Of a stretch of DNA of 64,000 nucleotides, positions 15,700 to 24,986 are shown in pieces; the first letter of the stretch is position 1, and each line of letters begins with the position of its first letter. The position numbers and the translations under genes are program-made. Under the pieces are notes generated by a model. The model was not told the DNA's origin and did no database searches. It was given only the letters and a program-made list of their open reading frames with translations. Origin of the DNA: Methanosarcina vacuolata Z-761 (GTDB lineage Archaea; Halobacteriota; Methanosarcinia; Methanosarcinales; Methanosarcinaceae); contig NZ_CP009520.1 of assembly GCF_000969905.1 (NCBI RefSeq), forward strand, positions 2,294,001-2,358,000, in the 5' to 3' direction.

Positions 15700-15947
15700 A
15701 ATTCATCCCGATTCCCTTCAGTATCTCGGATTACAGTATATCGGATTACAGTATATCGGATTATAGTATCCCGGATTTCAGTATCCCGGATTTCAGTATC
15801 CCGGATTTCAGTATCCCGGATTTCAGTATCCCGGATTTCAGTATCCCGGATACAGTGTCTGAAATGGCTCTCTGTACTTCGTATCCGTATGACCATCTTG
15901 AGGTTGACCATCTCAAGGGCAGAAATGTATTTCTTCTGGTATGGCAA
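15618..15947 (-). CDS. Repeat-rich ORF in the freE position
   Basis: A 109-codon frame between freA and freG. It begins MPYQKKYISALEMVNLKMVI, then contains about nine I-R-[DY]-T-[EIV] pentapeptides made by a 15-bp tandem array, and ends 82 bases inside freG in a different frame. In the M. barkeri Fre operon a gene called freE takes the place of the protease gene frhD between A and G; by position this is its counterpart. No FrhD-like protease signature is present. Whether this frame is translated is uncertain: the pentapeptide array may simply be an expanding repeat in a spacer. An overlapping short ORF with a better start lies just upstream. Confidence 0.4.
   Translation of the reverse strand: MPYQKKYISALEMVNLKMVIRIRSTESHFRHCIRDTEIRDTEIRDTEIRDTEIRDTEIRDTIIRYTVIRYTVIRDTEGNRDELWNCLRRWKLQRRRNQWQTRSSSGMYT
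15724..15855. repeat. 15-bp tandem array inside the hydrogenase operon
   Basis: About nine units related to cccggatttcagtat; the central five are identical, the outer ones read atcggattacagtat. Its length of 15 keeps any frame through it open. Confidence 0.95.
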
Positions 15948-18286: not shown

Positions 18287-18691
18287 GTGATATTGAGAAT
18301 TCCTCTGCTAATCCTATGCTTAGCTCTTTCTCTTGGATTAACGCAAGCGCAGACTGGTATGACTGGAAGTATGACCGGAAATATTACTGAGAATATAATG
18401 ATCAATGATATGGGTAACGTAACCGGAAGTATAAGTGGAACCATGATTTGCAACATGACTGGAATGACTGGAATGCAAAATATGACCGGAAATATGAGAA
18501 ATATGCCAATGATTGGAATCATAACCGGAAACATAACCGGGGGTCATATAACCACAATGCAGAATATGACCGGAAATATGGAGAATATTCCAATGACTGG
18601 AAACATAACCGGAAACATAACAGTGTATATGAAGAATATGACAGAAATGCAGAAAATGAAAAATGCAGAAAATGAAAAATGCAGAAAATGA
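18287..18691 (+). CDS. Secreted Met-Thr-Gly-Asn repeat protein, 3' end disrupted by a tandem array
   Basis: Residues 1-21 (MILRIPLLILCLALSLGLTQ-AQ) form a signal peptide. The mature part is made almost only of Met, Thr, Gly, Asn and Ile, with repeated (M/I)TGN, NMTGNM and NITGNIT motifs and about a dozen N-x-T sequons, suggesting a glycosylated extracellular protein. The frame then enters a 16-bp tandem array and stops; since 16 is not a multiple of three the array changes frame, so the natural C-terminus may be lost. AAGGA precedes the GTG (18287) closely and an in-frame TTG (18293) at better distance. I do not recognise a family. Confidence 0.5.
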   Translation: MILRIPLLILCLALSLGLTQAQTGMTGSMTGNITENIMINDMGNVTGSISGTMICNMTGMTGMQNMTGNMRNMPMIGIITGNITGGHITTMQNMTGNMENIPMTGNITGNITVYMKNMTEMQKMKNAENEKCRK

Positions 18692-18790
18692 AAAATGCAG
18701 AAAATGAAAAATGCAGAAAATGAAAAATGCAGAAAATGAAAAATGCAGAAAATGAAAAATGCAGAAAATGAAAAATGCAGAAAATGACAA
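18645..18790. repeat. 16-bp tandem array
   Basis: The unit tgcagaaaatgaaaaa is repeated about eight times almost perfectly, with a diverged first copy (atgcagaaaatgaaaaatgc). On the opposite strand it generates long phenylalanine-rich frames that are artefacts. Confidence 0.95.
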
Positions 18791-18905
18791 AAATATGGAA
18801 TGTGACAAGAACAGAGAAAACTCATAACTAATCTGTTGCTCGTGCCTAAAAGAATAAAATTCCAAATATGTTATGCGGAAGATCACGGTTTAGATATGAG
18901 AATGG

Positions 18906-19159: not shown

Positions 19160-20218
19160 ATGGAGAATATGGTGGGTATTCAGCATAGCAGTTCCAGGGA
19201 AAAGGACTTTGTGGAAGTTCTCGGATTAAGGGAGGAGATCGAGAAAATCCAGTCAACAATTGCTGATTTTGAGACGGGAAAAAAGCTGAATATAGCCATT
19301 GTAGCCGAACCTCTTAAAGGAAAAACTACCCTGAGCGACAAAATAGAGAGAATAAATTTAAACAGGGCAGCAAAAATCACTTTTTCTAAAATTGTACAGA
19401 ATAAAAACGAAATTTCCCTCCCGGATGATACAAAAAAAATTGTAATTCTTGATAACTGTCATTTCCTGTATATGAGAAAGCCAGGTGGTTTTGATATCTT
19501 TTATGAGTTTTTGGATATGATTAGTTTTCAGAACAGGATATTTATCACTACCTGGAACACTAATTCCTGGAAATTCTTAAACGAAGCTTTCGGGCTTGGA
19601 AAATATTTTCCAGTACAGATCTTCATCCCTGCTTTTGAAAAGGAAAATCTCAGACTTTTTATTCTCAACAGATATGAAAAAGATGAGATAAAATTTGCTA
19701 AAGACGAAGAATCCGAAGAAGAACCCTTCTTCTATATAATGAAATATCCTTTAGAGCTAGCATTATTGGGCAAAAAAATTTTCATTCTTGTTCCTAAAAT
19801 AAATATATCTTATCTCAAGAATCGCCTTCTGAAAAAACAAAAAATAGAAGCTGCTGAAGACCAGGTATTTGAAAAGCTTTACCTGGAATCAAAAGGCAAC
19901 CCCGGAATTGCTTTGAGAATCTGGGAGCTTGGTCTTGACTATCCTGTTATGAAGCCTAAAAATATAGGCCAATTTTCGTATGAAGTAGACCTTGAATATG
20001 AAGAGGCTTTTACTTTGAGCCTTATTCTTTCTTATCAGGGCCTTACAAAATCTGAAATCACCGAAATAATGGGCCCCATGTCGAGCGTGGACAAAATTCT
20101 CTACCAGCTCTTAAGCCAGGAACTTATTTTAAAAGATGAAAATGACTCATATCGTGTCAGGCCTGAAGCCTTGAGCAGTGTTACTACATATATGGAAAAA
20201 CTGAGGCTGGTGTGGTAA
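19160..20218 (+). CDS. P-loop ATPase-like protein paired with an MscS channel gene
   Basis: 352 residues. Residues 40-60 (GKKLNIAIVAEPLKGKTTLS) look like a Walker A loop with alanine in place of the first glycine (A-x4-GKT). 'KKIVILDNCHFLY' near 92-104 is a Walker B with Asp98. The middle resembles AAA/STAND ATPases, and the last 80 residues ('LSLILSYQGLTKSEITEIMG', 'LLSQELILKDENDSYRVRPE') look like a winged helix. No exact family is assigned. The stop codon is immediately followed by the GTG start of the MscS gene, so the two are almost surely one transcript and may act together. An ATP-dependent control of the channel is conjecture. Confidence 0.6.
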   Translation: MENMVGIQHSSSREKDFVEVLGLREEIEKIQSTIADFETGKKLNIAIVAEPLKGKTTLSDKIERINLNRAAKITFSKIVQNKNEISLPDDTKKIVILDNCHFLYMRKPGGFDIFYEFLDMISFQNRIFITTWNTNSWKFLNEAFGLGKYFPVQIFIPAFEKENLRLFILNRYEKDEIKFAKDEESEEEPFFYIMKYPLELALLGKKIFILVPKINISYLKNRLLKKQKIEAAEDQVFEKLYLESKGNPGIALRIWELGLDYPVMKPKNIGQFSYEVDLEYEEAFTLSLILSYQGLTKSEITEIMGPMSSVDKILYQLLSQELILKDENDSYRVRPEALSSVTTYMEKLRLVW

Positions 20219-21124
20219 GTGGTAGACGGGAACACAAGCAGGGAGCAATTATTAGAAATTTTCAGGTCAGTTGATACGCAAACCCTCATAACTATGGCTC
20301 TTATTTTTTTAATTGCATATGTTCTTGGAAGGATCATTACCATTCTCTTATTAAAACTTTCAGAAAAATTGAGCCACACTGGCAGAATAAAAGTAGAAGT
20401 AGTTATTCCGATCATAAAATTTGTAATCTACCTCATAGCTTTTTATTTCATCTTTAGAGAAATATTCAAAATTTTCGGACCGGAGATCTTTCTCCTTGCG
20501 GGACTTCTGGGTGCAGCCATTGGATTTGGGCTTAAAGATCTTTTTTCAGATATTGTTGGAGGGCTGGTAATTACATTTGAAAAACCTTATCAGATAGGGG
20601 ATAAGATTTCAATCGGGAATTATTTTGGAGAAGTTACTGATATAGGTCTAAGGTCAACGAAACTGTTCACGCCTGATGCTAATGTCGTTACAGCCCCAAA
20701 CAGCCTGATTTTCAAAGAAACCGTTGCCAGTGCAAATTATGGGGTCTCGGAAATGATGGTTGTAATAGACCTGTATATTGCAGGAGAGTCACATGTAGAA
20801 ACTGCAATGAGAATTTTATGGGAAGCAGTCGTGAGCTCTAAATACGTTTATATCTCCAAAGAAAGGCCTGTTATTCTGCTGCATAAAGCCCTTCCATTCT
20901 ACACGAGGTTAAGGGCCAAAGCTTATGTCAATGACCTTAGGGACCAGTTCAAGTTTGAATCCGATGTTCACACAAGAGCCTGGGTAGAATTCCAGAAGAA
21001 TGGGATCAGGGCTCCCCAGCTCCATATTTTGAATATTCCTTCAATAGAAGAAAAGTATGAATCAGAAGCTACAACTCGGAGAAATATGGGGTCAAATGCA
21101 GAAGGTCTTAAAGATTCCAGATAA
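20219..21124 (+). CDS. MscS family mechanosensitive channel
   Basis: 301 residues. Three transmembrane helices: about 20-43, 62-82 and the pore helix 'LLAGLLGAAIGFGLKDLFSD' near 95-115 with the Gly/Ala packing pattern of MscS TM3. The beta domain follows ('PYQIGDKISIGNYFGEVTDI', 'LFTPDANVVTAPNSLIFKET') and then the alpha/beta C-terminal domain. Such channels open under membrane tension and release solutes in osmotic downshock. The start is GTG directly after the TAA of the upstream ATPase gene, indicating coupled translation. Confidence 0.9.
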   Translation: MVDGNTSREQLLEIFRSVDTQTLITMALIFLIAYVLGRIITILLLKLSEKLSHTGRIKVEVVIPIIKFVIYLIAFYFIFREIFKIFGPEIFLLAGLLGAAIGFGLKDLFSDIVGGLVITFEKPYQIGDKISIGNYFGEVTDIGLRSTKLFTPDANVVTAPNSLIFKETVASANYGVSEMMVVIDLYIAGESHVETAMRILWEAVVSSKYVYISKERPVILLHKALPFYTRLRAKAYVNDLRDQFKFESDVHTRAWVEFQKNGIRAPQLHILNIPSIEEKYESEATTRRNMGSNAEGLKDSR

Positions 21125-21297: not shown

Positions 21298-22239
21298 TTA
21301 TCGCCCCATAAGGTCGATACTTGTAGCAGTTCCAACCATTATGTCTTTTTCTTTTTCCAGGGCTTCAAGAATATTTGAGACCAAAAGGTGGCTGATTGCT
21401 CTCCTTTTCCTGGGTTCAACTACATATCTTAACCGCATTTCGATCCAATTTTCCTCCATTTTCATATAGAGCTTTGTCTGTACATCATAGGTAGTAATAA
21501 AATATTTTTGTCCCATTTGACGGAGTTCTTTCTGTGCCAGGTCTTCGAACTCTCCTAAAATTGAGCCTGCAACATTGAGAGCAATCCCTTCAGCTTTTTT
21601 CCAGTTGCTCCCATAAATAAGTAAAAACCGAACTTCATCCCAGATGAAGGAATAATCCCTAGTATAGTTTTTTATCGTCTTATTGAGGGCAAAGCTGTTA
21701 GGAATATGGAGAATTCTGCCAGTATACTGATCTGCATCCACCCATTCCCTTATTTCCATTATTGTGGTGCTTATGCTCCCTATATCGAGCACATCGCCTA
21801 CATTGTCTTCAACTTGAATCCGATCTCCTGCTTTAAAAGGGTGATACAAAATTAGGAGAATCCCTCCGGCTATGTTTCGCAAAAGGTCTTGAAGTGCAAT
21901 TGCGACTCCGGCGCTGAGAATCCCGTAGGCAATAAACAGGGTGCTAGTTCTCTTGAACCAGATTGCAAAAAGTGCGGCAAAAGCGAGTACTGTGATAAGG
22001 ATAGATGCAGTTTTCCTCAGAGTGTATCTGTCTCTGGCAGTTGATACTCTTCTAAGAATAAGATTTCCGGTAATGGAATTTATTATATAGGCCAGAAAAA
22101 TCACAAGCAAAGAGATGAGAAGAGCATCCAGGAGAGACCGGTCCTCGAAGATGTAAAAGTTAGTCAGGTATCGGATATATGCGATAAAAAGTATCAAAAT
22201 GAGCAAAATAAAAATATTCAGTCTCCTGATAACCCTCAT
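21298..22239 (-). CDS. MscS family mechanosensitive channel (second)
   Basis: 313 residues, convergent with the first MscS gene. N-terminal helices at about 8-28, 35-58 and 75-95 are followed by the pore helix 'LSAGVAIALQDLLRNIAGGI' near 115-135 and the beta domain 'HPFKAGDRIQVEDNVGDVLD'. 'WVDADQYTGRILHIPNSFAL' replaces the usual loop. It differs clearly from its neighbour, so it is not a recent duplicate. Two linked MscS genes point to a local osmotic-safety module. Confidence 0.88.
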   Translation of the reverse strand: MRVIRRLNIFILLILILFIAYIRYLTNFYIFEDRSLLDALLISLLVIFLAYIINSITGNLILRRVSTARDRYTLRKTASILITVLAFAALFAIWFKRTSTLFIAYGILSAGVAIALQDLLRNIAGGILLILYHPFKAGDRIQVEDNVGDVLDIGSISTTIMEIREWVDADQYTGRILHIPNSFALNKTIKNYTRDYSFIWDEVRFLLIYGSNWKKAEGIALNVAGSILGEFEDLAQKELRQMGQKYFITTYDVQTKLYMKMEENWIEMRLRYVVEPRKRRAISHLLVSNILEALEKEKDIMVGTATSIDLMGR

Positions 22240-22505: not shown

Positions 22506-24986
22506 TCAAAACCACCTTCTGCGGTCCATTATCTCATAAAGTTTCACTTTCATAAAATCGGTTATAACAAAAGCCACAAGTGCGTAAATCCAGACAAAAC
22601 CTGCCAGTTTCCATCCAATTGGAGATATATAGAATCCATATACTGCAACGAGCGTTGCCAATACTTTTGTAACCACTGCAGCCCAAAAAAGGAGTTTTCC
22701 CGGAGGAGGAGACCAGAAGTGCCCCCTGTTGCGGGCAACGAATATGGTCAGGTGCCCGGCTATTGCAAGTTTCAGGAATATAAAAGACTGCAGTACACCC
22801 GGACTGAGATAAAGAACTCTGGCTCCGATATAGTATATTGCAAAAGAAAAAACCACACCTACTATTCCCAGAAATGTGGACATTCTCAGGACTTCACGCA
22901 TATTCCATTTTTCTGGCATTAAGGAATATTTTACATTGTCATACGCAATAGCCATTATAGGAGCATCATTGAGAATAGCAAGCAAAACAATCATTATAGC
23001 AGTTACAGGATAAAAATTAAACACAATTATTGAAGTGGCAATAAAAAAAAGCACCCTTACAGTCTCAGCGATTCTATAGATAGAATAGCTCTTCATCCTC
23101 TGAAATATCTTACGGCTTTCTTTTATCGCGTTAATAATGGTCGAGAGCCCTGAAATTGTAAACACTATATCTGCAGCGGATTTTGCAGCATCTGTAGCCC
23201 CCGCAACAGCAATTCCAGCATCAGCCATTTTAAGGGCAGGGACGTCGTTAACCCCATCGCCCGTCATGCCAACAATATGCTCTTTTTTCTGAAGGAGTTC
23301 AACAATCCTGTATTTGTGTTCGGGAAATACCTGGGAAAAACCGTCAGCCTTCTCTACAATTTCCTGGGCTTCGGAATCGGATTTTTCTACGAAATCATCA
23401 GCTGTAACTATCTTCGTACCCAGGCCTACCTGGCTTGCTATCTCTTTAGCAATGGCAAGATGGTCTCCGGTTACCATTTTCACGTCTACTTTAAGGGAGT
23501 TTGCCGTCTTTATGGTCTCAGCGGAATCTTCATGCGGTGGGTCATAAAGTCCAAAAAGTCCTGCAAACCTGTATTTTCCGTCCTCTTCTACACAAACCCC
23601 CAGGGCACGATATCCTTTTGAAGCCATAGAATTTACTTTTTCTTCTACATTCTGCCTTATTTCTTCTTTATTGCTTGACATACCCAGAATAACCTGGGGT
23701 GCGCCTTTGGCAATTTTAAACTCTCCTTCGGGTCCTTTAACCGTAGCTTCAGTGTGCTTTATGACAGGGTCAAATGGAGTGAATTTTGTCACTTCATAAG
23801 TTTTCATTTTCTCTTCAAGGGATTCCGTATCTTTCGCTTTCTGGAGGATCGCATTGTCAATCGGGTCATTATCCTCTTCTCTTGAAGTAAGAGAACCATA
23901 GATCAGAAGGTCGTTTTCTTTAAAGTCTCCGAAAGGCACTAACTCGGATAATTTTAGCTTGTTCTGGGTAATTGTACCGGTTTTATCCGAACATAGAATG
24001 TCCATTCCTGCCATTTCTTCTATGGAGACAAGTTTACTGACAATAGCTCCTTTGTTTGCAAGTTCGGTAGCTCCTACAGCCATTGAAACGGACATTACTG
24101 CTGGAAGGGCTGCAGGAATTGCAGCGACTATCAGAACAAGAGCAAACTGGAGGGTTTCCAGAAAAGGAGTGTGCCTGAAAAGTTCTTCTATAACTAAAAC
24201 AATTGCAACAATACAGCCTGCAAGGGCAATCAGGTAGTTTCCGATTTTGAGGACAGCTTTTTGAAAGTGGCTCCTGGTCCGAATTTCAGCCACCAGTTTT
24301 GTTGTCTCTCCAAAATAGGTATTCATGCCTGTAGCCACAACCAGAGCATTCATTTCCCCTTTCTGGATAACGGATCCTGAATAGGCAATGCCATCAGATT
24401 TTTTCTCTACAGGCAGGGATTCTCCCGTTAGGGCTGATTCGTCTACCTGCAGATATTCTCCTTCGAGGAGTTTGAGGTCAGCAGGAACAATATCCCCTGA
24501 ACGTACACGGACAACATCTCCAGGGACCAGTTCCCGTGCAGGTTTTTGGGTCCATTGTCCTTCTCTGAGTACTCTGGCATTCAGGGCCATTTTCTTCTTA
24601 AGAAGTTCAATCGCATTGTCAGCCTTATGTTCCTGCCAGAACCCCACAACCCCATTTAAGATAAGGAGCAAGGAGATGATCACAAAGTCTTCCCATCGAT
24701 GGATAATACCTGAAATTGCAGCTGCCACTTCGATCATCCAGGGAATTGGACCCCAGAAATAACCTAAAAATTTTCTAAGTGGGTTGACCTTCTTTTCGGA
24801 AATTTCATTATAACCATACTGCTTTATCCGATTTTCAGCTTCCGATGAAGAAAGTCCTTTATTACTGGAATCAAGTTTTTTCAGGACTTCATCTGCAGGC
24901 GAATCCTTTATTTCATCGATTTTGAGCTTTATATTTTCCCCTATAAATAAGCCCCCAATCCGTGTTTTCCCAATAAAAATGTCCAA
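22506..24986 (-). CDS. P3A-type plasma-membrane proton-efflux ATPase
   Basis: 826 residues with all P-type ATPase signatures: 'TGES' at 187-190 (actuator), 'VAAIPAALPAVMSV' (TM4), 'CSDKTGTIT' with phosphorylated Asp334, 'KGAPQVI', 'MVTGDHLAIAKEI' and 'MTGDGVNDVPALKMADAGIA' (hinge). The N-terminal 'GLSSSEAENRIKQYGYNEIS' and the compact C-terminus with ten predicted membrane helices fit the H+-ATPase (P3A) group known from plants, fungi and some archaea. It would pump protons out with ATP and energise uptake. The gene stands alone next to MscS genes; an ISL3 element lies 130 bases upstream. Confidence 0.88.
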   Translation of the reverse strand: MDIFIGKTRIGGLFIGENIKLKIDEIKDSPADEVLKKLDSSNKGLSSSEAENRIKQYGYNEISEKKVNPLRKFLGYFWGPIPWMIEVAAAISGIIHRWEDFVIISLLLILNGVVGFWQEHKADNAIELLKKKMALNARVLREGQWTQKPARELVPGDVVRVRSGDIVPADLKLLEGEYLQVDESALTGESLPVEKKSDGIAYSGSVIQKGEMNALVVATGMNTYFGETTKLVAEIRTRSHFQKAVLKIGNYLIALAGCIVAIVLVIEELFRHTPFLETLQFALVLIVAAIPAALPAVMSVSMAVGATELANKGAIVSKLVSIEEMAGMDILCSDKTGTITQNKLKLSELVPFGDFKENDLLIYGSLTSREEDNDPIDNAILQKAKDTESLEEKMKTYEVTKFTPFDPVIKHTEATVKGPEGEFKIAKGAPQVILGMSSNKEEIRQNVEEKVNSMASKGYRALGVCVEEDGKYRFAGLFGLYDPPHEDSAETIKTANSLKVDVKMVTGDHLAIAKEIASQVGLGTKIVTADDFVEKSDSEAQEIVEKADGFSQVFPEHKYRIVELLQKKEHIVGMTGDGVNDVPALKMADAGIAVAGATDAAKSAADIVFTISGLSTIINAIKESRKIFQRMKSYSIYRIAETVRVLFFIATSIIVFNFYPVTAIMIVLLAILNDAPIMAIAYDNVKYSLMPEKWNMREVLRMSTFLGIVGVVFSFAIYYIGARVLYLSPGVLQSFIFLKLAIAGHLTIFVARNRGHFWSPPPGKLLFWAAVVTKVLATLVAVYGFYISPIGWKLAGFVWIYALVAFVITDFMKVKLYEIMDRRRWF

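Follow-up and report, generated by a model that had tools for sequence, protein, structure and literature searches.

MscS channels are usually seen as self-sufficient tension valves. In the window, by which we mean the whole 64,000-nucleotide stretch of the Methanosarcina vacuolata Z-761 genome analysed here, a gene for an MscS-type channel follows without a gap on a gene for a P-loop protein (gene 1), raising the question of whether the two products work together and, if so, how. The first-pass annotation of this sequence had proposed that an ATPase senses or controls the channel. In the literature searched (titles and abstract openings, with subscription literature mostly outside the search, together with passages of PMC11337218 and PMC6741144 and a term look-up in PMC7159879), none of the papers listed dealt with an MscS partner of the AAA+ or P-loop type. 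A partner-bound clade would put such a channel under protein control, and an archaeal family so far without annotation would gain a function.

Results

Gene 1 and the channel gene abut in the window

The features of the two genes are collected in Table 1. The start of gene 1 is likely the ATG at 19169 because relatives start there in the alignment. As the first-pass annotation had described, the TAA of gene 1 is followed immediately by the GTG of the channel gene, and the gene 1 product has a non-standard Walker A motif (A-x4-GKT) as well as a Walker B motif (IVILDN, residues 94-99). The reading of the second open reading frame as an MscS channel was likewise confirmed, the protein scoring 73.2 bits against MS_channel_2nd (PF00924; cut-off 20.2). 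We take the FITTWN...W stretch of gene 1 to be the sensor-1 position, and the GGTG shortly before the channel start is a plausible ribosome-binding (Shine-Dalgarno) site for the channel gene. A promoter scan with a sigma-70 model, which is not meant for archaea, returned 5 matches compared with 6.6 expected by chance.

Table 1. Features of gene 1 and the paired channel gene (coordinates are positions in the window)
Feature	Coordinates	Strand	Remarks
Gene 1, AAA+-fold P-loop protein (predicted), 352 aa, undescribed family	19160..20218	+	Open reading frame, alignment, model
Walker A, AEPLKGKTT, residues 49-57	19304..19330	+	GK[ST] in 27/59 family members
Walker B, IVILDNCH, residues 94-101	19439..19462	+	Asp without a following acidic residue in the window's gene 1
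FITTWN...W conserved stretch	19541..19573	+	W132 and N133 in 58/59, W137 in 59/59
GNPG motif, residues 246-249, helical lid	19886..19915	+	
Acidic winged helix, residues 277-340	19988..20179	+	Mean net charge -5.3 (59 members)
RLVW, last codons of gene 1, conserved R-x-V-W tail	20204..20215	+	W352 in 51/59
GGTG inside gene 1, 6 nt before the channel GTG	20209..20212	+	
TAA stop of gene 1; zero gap, frame shared with the channel start	20216..20218	+	
MscS-type channel, 301 aa, paired subfamily, GTG start	20219..21124	+	PF00924 E=1.9e-20
Lys106, pore-lining helix of the channel	20534..20536	+	Lys in 92% of 59 paired channels
MscS beta domain (PF00924) of the channel	20537..20728	+	
Cytoplasmic subfamily signature P-x-Y-x-R-L-R-x-K-x-Y-V-x-D-L-R-x-E-F	20894..20977	+	

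Upstream of the pair lie genes that we presume to be hydrogenase-like. Nine copies of a 15-base repeat encoding repeated RDTEI are present at 15717-15851, just upstream of the start of one of these genes, and about nine copies of a 16-base repeat (AAATGCAGAAAATGAA) are present at 18629-18792, between these genes and the pair. On the downstream side, a second MscS paralogue (21298-22239, minus strand) is convergent to the pair. It was rejected as a third part of the unit: its sequence is that of another paralogue (PF00924 score 46.7 bits), and an opposite-strand MscS gene neighbours the pair in some relatives only. The second gene downstream of the pair (22506-24986, minus strand; 826 aa) presumably encodes a P-type ATPase-like protein.

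The two genes co-occur and are adjacent across the phylum

Among 59 genomes of near relatives, gene 1 was detected in 22 (E≤1e-3) and the channel subfamily in the identical 22 (E≤1e-30). Across the phylum (392 genomes), gene 1 was detected in 66, the channel subfamily in 65 (E≤1e-40), and both in 64. G260 has gene 1 without the channel, and this gene 1 is a 72-residue remnant; in G333, also counted as having gene 1 without the channel, both genes are broken and the best channel piece has E=8e-38; and in G408, counted as having the channel without gene 1, the channel match sits at the edge of a contig, preceded by the tail of gene 1 (E=2.8e-7). Because the pair recurs in every one of the near relatives that has either gene, and across the phylum, its occurrence is more than chance.

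The first-pass annotation had named separation of the genes in most relatives as the finding that would speak against a link. At 61 of the 67 loci inspected in the 66 genomes with gene 1, corresponding to 60 genomes, the channel start lies -10 to +5 bases from the gene 1 stop. The six genomes with non-adjacent genes comprise two contig ends, one transposon insertion and three broken or decayed copies. In G165 and G396, contig edges cut the pair; in G396, the tail of gene 1 and the channel gene are on another contig, while in G165 the other contig begins within the channel gene or immediately ahead of it. In G097, a transposon gene that we take to be TnpB-like (L121:1849-2997, plus strand) lies between the two genes, both of which are still open. 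Finally, gene 1 is broken in G384, and G260 and G333 are the other two decayed or broken cases. With adjacency in 60 of the 66 genomes and an explanation for each of the other six, we conclude that a functional link between the genes is well supported.

In G321 and G353, both among the 61 adjacent loci, gene 1 is interrupted and the channel gene is open; in the near set gene 1 is interrupted in G018 and G019, with the channel start of G018 frameshifted as well. These interrupted copies are possibly the result of decay or sequencing error.

In the 60 neighbourhoods, which reach approximately 3 to 6 kb to each side and less at contig ends, no family besides the two was present in more than 6, and a larger operon was rejected on this ground. 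A plasmid collection contained one match, a haloarchaeal pair annotated as 'hypothetical protein' and 'mechanosensitive ion channel family protein', and a scan of 84,980 species using narrow patterns identified 22 loci, all of which are archaeal. In total, the side-by-side arrangement of the genes across many archaea suggests that the two proteins form one working unit.

Both genes share their inheritance and are under purifying selection

The gene 1 and channel trees, built by different methods (IQ-TREE and FastTree, respectively), have most well-supported groups in common. The genus g5 contains two distant versions, one in G182, G255 and G423 and the other in G306, G311 and G385, and the first group clusters with G226 from another genus. 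Since both genes follow the identical split, they move or disappear together. Moreover, gene 1 distances and channel distances are correlated (0.86 over 59 rows, a value that includes shared species history).

For gene 1, dN/dS was 0.13-0.34 in 11 of 12 chosen pairs, one pair being not computable, and 0.13-0.27 in pairs lacking the Walker Lys; for the channel gene, dN/dS was 0.08-0.24 in the chosen pairs. By these estimates, gene 1 is under purifying selection, and this includes members with a degenerate P-loop.

The paired channels form a clade of their own

The channel aligns to the MscK, MscM, YnaI and MscS chains. Paired channels score at least 198 bits to their own profile, and other MscS open reading frames found in the loci score at most 83. 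At pore-helix residue 106, at which the paired channels mostly carry Lys (Table 1), Gln is present in all 38 alignable unpaired paralogues (39 rows, one with a gap at this residue). Also, many residues of the cytoplasmic stretch 226-253 are private to the paired clade. The window's own genome (G000) has seven places with an MscS domain, one of which belongs to this clade. We conclude from the sequence comparisons that the partner channels are a separate clade marked by distinct pore-helix and cytoplasmic signatures.

Gene 1 is predicted to encode an AAA+-fold protein outside the families tested

Gene 1 matched no Pfam or NCBIfam family over cut-off, 19 family members also being scanned against Pfam, and no PDB chain was matched by its sequence profile. 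An AlphaFold2 model (19 alignment rows; pLDDT 75.2, pTM 0.63) contains a P-loop core with strands 45-49, 70-74, 94-98, 127-133 and 152-155, a beta-hairpin insert (191-214), the helical lid with the GNPG motif, a winged helix (helices 280-291, 297-304 and 307-319; strands 323-325 and 330-333) and a C-terminal helix. The winged helix, which the first-pass annotation had considered probable, is thus present in the model and is also in line with weak Pfam matches at the C-terminus (SMC_ScpB, E=0.00098, below its own cut-off; TrmB, E=0.14).

In a Foldseek search with the model, the best matches were RuvB (1in4, E=1.7e-8) and Orc1 (2qby_B, E=7.9e-7), and a clamp loader was matched as well; the query TM-scores of the best 50 matches were low (0.29-0.44). 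In VIA-align, the cores of NSF, p97 and Vps4 ranked top with Z of 14-15 over approximately 200 residues. In profile comparisons, Orc1/Cdc6 reached a probability of 59% and ATPase_2 of 55%, compared with 0.2% for the paired channel as an unrelated control. Both profile relations are remote. Gene 1 did not match the Orc1/Cdc6 family model TIGR02928, and the STAND/ATPase_2 model PF01637 was also unmatched. The model, Foldseek and VIA-align agree on an AAA+ core fold. In total, the structure prediction supports that the gene 1 product is an AAA+-fold protein outside every described family tested, in which an AAA+ core is combined with an acidic winged helix and which is nearest to RuvB and Orc1/Cdc6.

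The window's gene 1 departs from the canonical Walker A motif G-x4-GK[ST], and its Walker B motif has D98-N99. Among the 59 aligned members, GR[ST] is present in 17 and other sequences in 15 in addition to those with GK[ST] (Table 1), i.e. the P-loop is degenerate in 32; the Walker B residue is Asp in 45 and Glu in eight. In a tree built without the Walker columns, the state of the P-loop changes at least five times. G110 and G246, like W137, are invariant. As a general description of the family, the ATPase of the first-pass annotation was therefore not upheld. Members with a degenerate P-loop have nonetheless kept both the channel gene at their side and the signature of purifying selection, so that ATP hydrolysis can hardly be the mechanism common to the family.

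These data bear on what the gene 1 product might do other than gate the channel. It could be a chaperone-like AAA+ assembly or stability factor that folds or assembles the channel, as would be in line with the AAA+ fold, the top ranks of NSF, p97 and Vps4, and the position of gene 1 directly and tightly in front of the channel gene. However, remodelling machines require hydrolysis, and Walker A is degenerate in more than half of the members; to our knowledge, ordinary MscS channels do without a factor of this kind. We consider this explanation unlikely.

Alternatively, the pair could be a defence or abortive-infection unit in which an AAA+/STAND-like protein recognizes an invader and responds by opening the channel, thereby killing or arresting the cell. 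The motif order of gene 1 is, as we take it, STAND-like, and both the patchy spread and the presence of two versions in a single genus point to transfer. By contrast, PADLOC models were unmatched except for a stray match (E=0.017), the gene 1 model consists of core, lid and winged helix with no extra sensor domain, no neighbour family recurs, and by the patterns used no relative was found in viral contigs, all of which make a role in defence improbable.

Gene 1 could also regulate transcription of the channel gene through its winged helix, given that the winged helices of its Foldseek neighbours Orc1/Cdc6 and RuvB bind DNA; however, its own winged helix is acidic in 56 of 59 members (Table 1), with a net charge of -0.7 in the recognition helix, which argues against DNA binding and leaves this role very doubtful.

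Near-contact rather than exact abutment is conserved

In a sample consisting of 58 pairs picked as intact and the window, in which start codons were picked by rule and some overlaps may be shifted, the gap between the genes was 0 in 28, -1 in 10, +2 in 10 and +1 in five pairs; the remaining six gaps were -10, -7, -4, +3, +5 and +5. At 22 named loci, from organisms that overlap with the 59-pair set, the gap was 0 in 21 and the last locus is frameshifted. The genes typically abut exactly in Methanosarcina, Methanoperedens and related lineages, i.e. in the nearer relatives. Because gaps vary across pairs, the conserved trait is near-contact and not an exact zero gap. Thus, of the extreme coupling emphasized in the first-pass annotation, the functional link was supported while a significance of the exact zero spacing was not. 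The C-terminal Trp of gene 1, absent in eight of 59 members, is kept also at non-zero gaps; this points to selection acting on the end of the protein and not on RNA alone.

Readthrough of the gene 1 stop codon to give an ATPase-channel fusion protein, as the zero gap and shared frame in 28 of the 59 pairs might suggest, is rejected as a general explanation because the frame is not kept (gaps of +1, +2, -1 and -4 break it), and is scarcely credible given that the stop codon is TAA, TGA or TAG depending on lineage and that, with the N-terminus of a three-helix MscS being outside, the fusion would place the ATPase part outside the cell.

Discussion

Altogether, we favour, with a probability of roughly 0.55, that the pair is a two-gene unit consisting of an MscS-subfamily channel and a cytoplasmic AAA+-fold subunit dedicated to it, by which the channel is controlled or held. 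Both genes are probably on one message, from which the partner would be translated first. The partner would then dock onto the channel's cytoplasmic part, with its conserved R-x-V-W tail and its acidic winged helix as candidate contacts, and the docked partner would hold the channel or set its gating. In members with an intact P-loop, as in the window, nucleotide binding may act as a switch, while in members with a degenerate P-loop the partner would have to be a hydrolysis-independent latch or scaffold; ATP hydrolysis would, accordingly, not be the core of the mechanism. In this scheme, physical contact, stoichiometry, the direction of control and the stimulus are elements that we infer.

A joined-chain prediction of gene 1 and the channel was weak (pLDDT 65.4, pTM 0.50, no interface measure). 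Counting against the proposed unit, operon partners can share a process without touching, and in a few genomes (G019, G321 and G353) the channel gene is open although the adjacent gene 1 is interrupted.

More tentatively, this MscS subfamily may be gated via its dedicated cytoplasmic AAA+-fold subunit, which would be switched by nucleotide in some archaea and be a pseudo-ATPase latch elsewhere, making the channel a valve under metabolic or signal control and not under tension alone. The natural series from intact to lost P-loops would allow the role of nucleotide to be asked, and the question is testable in Methanosarcina, which is genetically tractable.

Among known systems, the archaeal STAND-like ATPases of the ATPase_2 family (PF01637) share a profile match with gene 1 over the P-loop and Walker B; however, PF01637 had no match among the 19 gene 1 members scanned. 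Orc1/Cdc6 and RuvB have an AAA+ core, a lid and a C-terminal winged helix in common with gene 1, whereas the gene 1 family differs in having many degenerate Walker motifs, an acidic winged helix and a membrane channel as genomic partner. MscS, YnaI, MscK and MscM of E. coli, to whose chains the window channel aligns, likewise have the MS_channel_2nd domain. The window channel differs from these kin in belonging to a clade of its own (198 versus 83 bits), in having a pore-helix Lys for Gln and in the constant AAA+-fold partner gene; we know of no such partner for the four E. coli channels. In the passages of the study on Haloferax that we drew on, mscS2 is in an operon with dacZ, i.e. an archaeal MscS gene beside a gene for a nucleotide-handling protein, and this arrangement is kept in all halobacteria (PMC6741144). 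There, mscS2 could be deleted, and it was not a main c-di-AMP target under the conditions used (PMC6741144). DacZ is a di-adenylate cyclase and not an AAA+ protein (PMC6741144). In the literature searched, dacZ-mscS2 is the nearest likeness to the pair described here.
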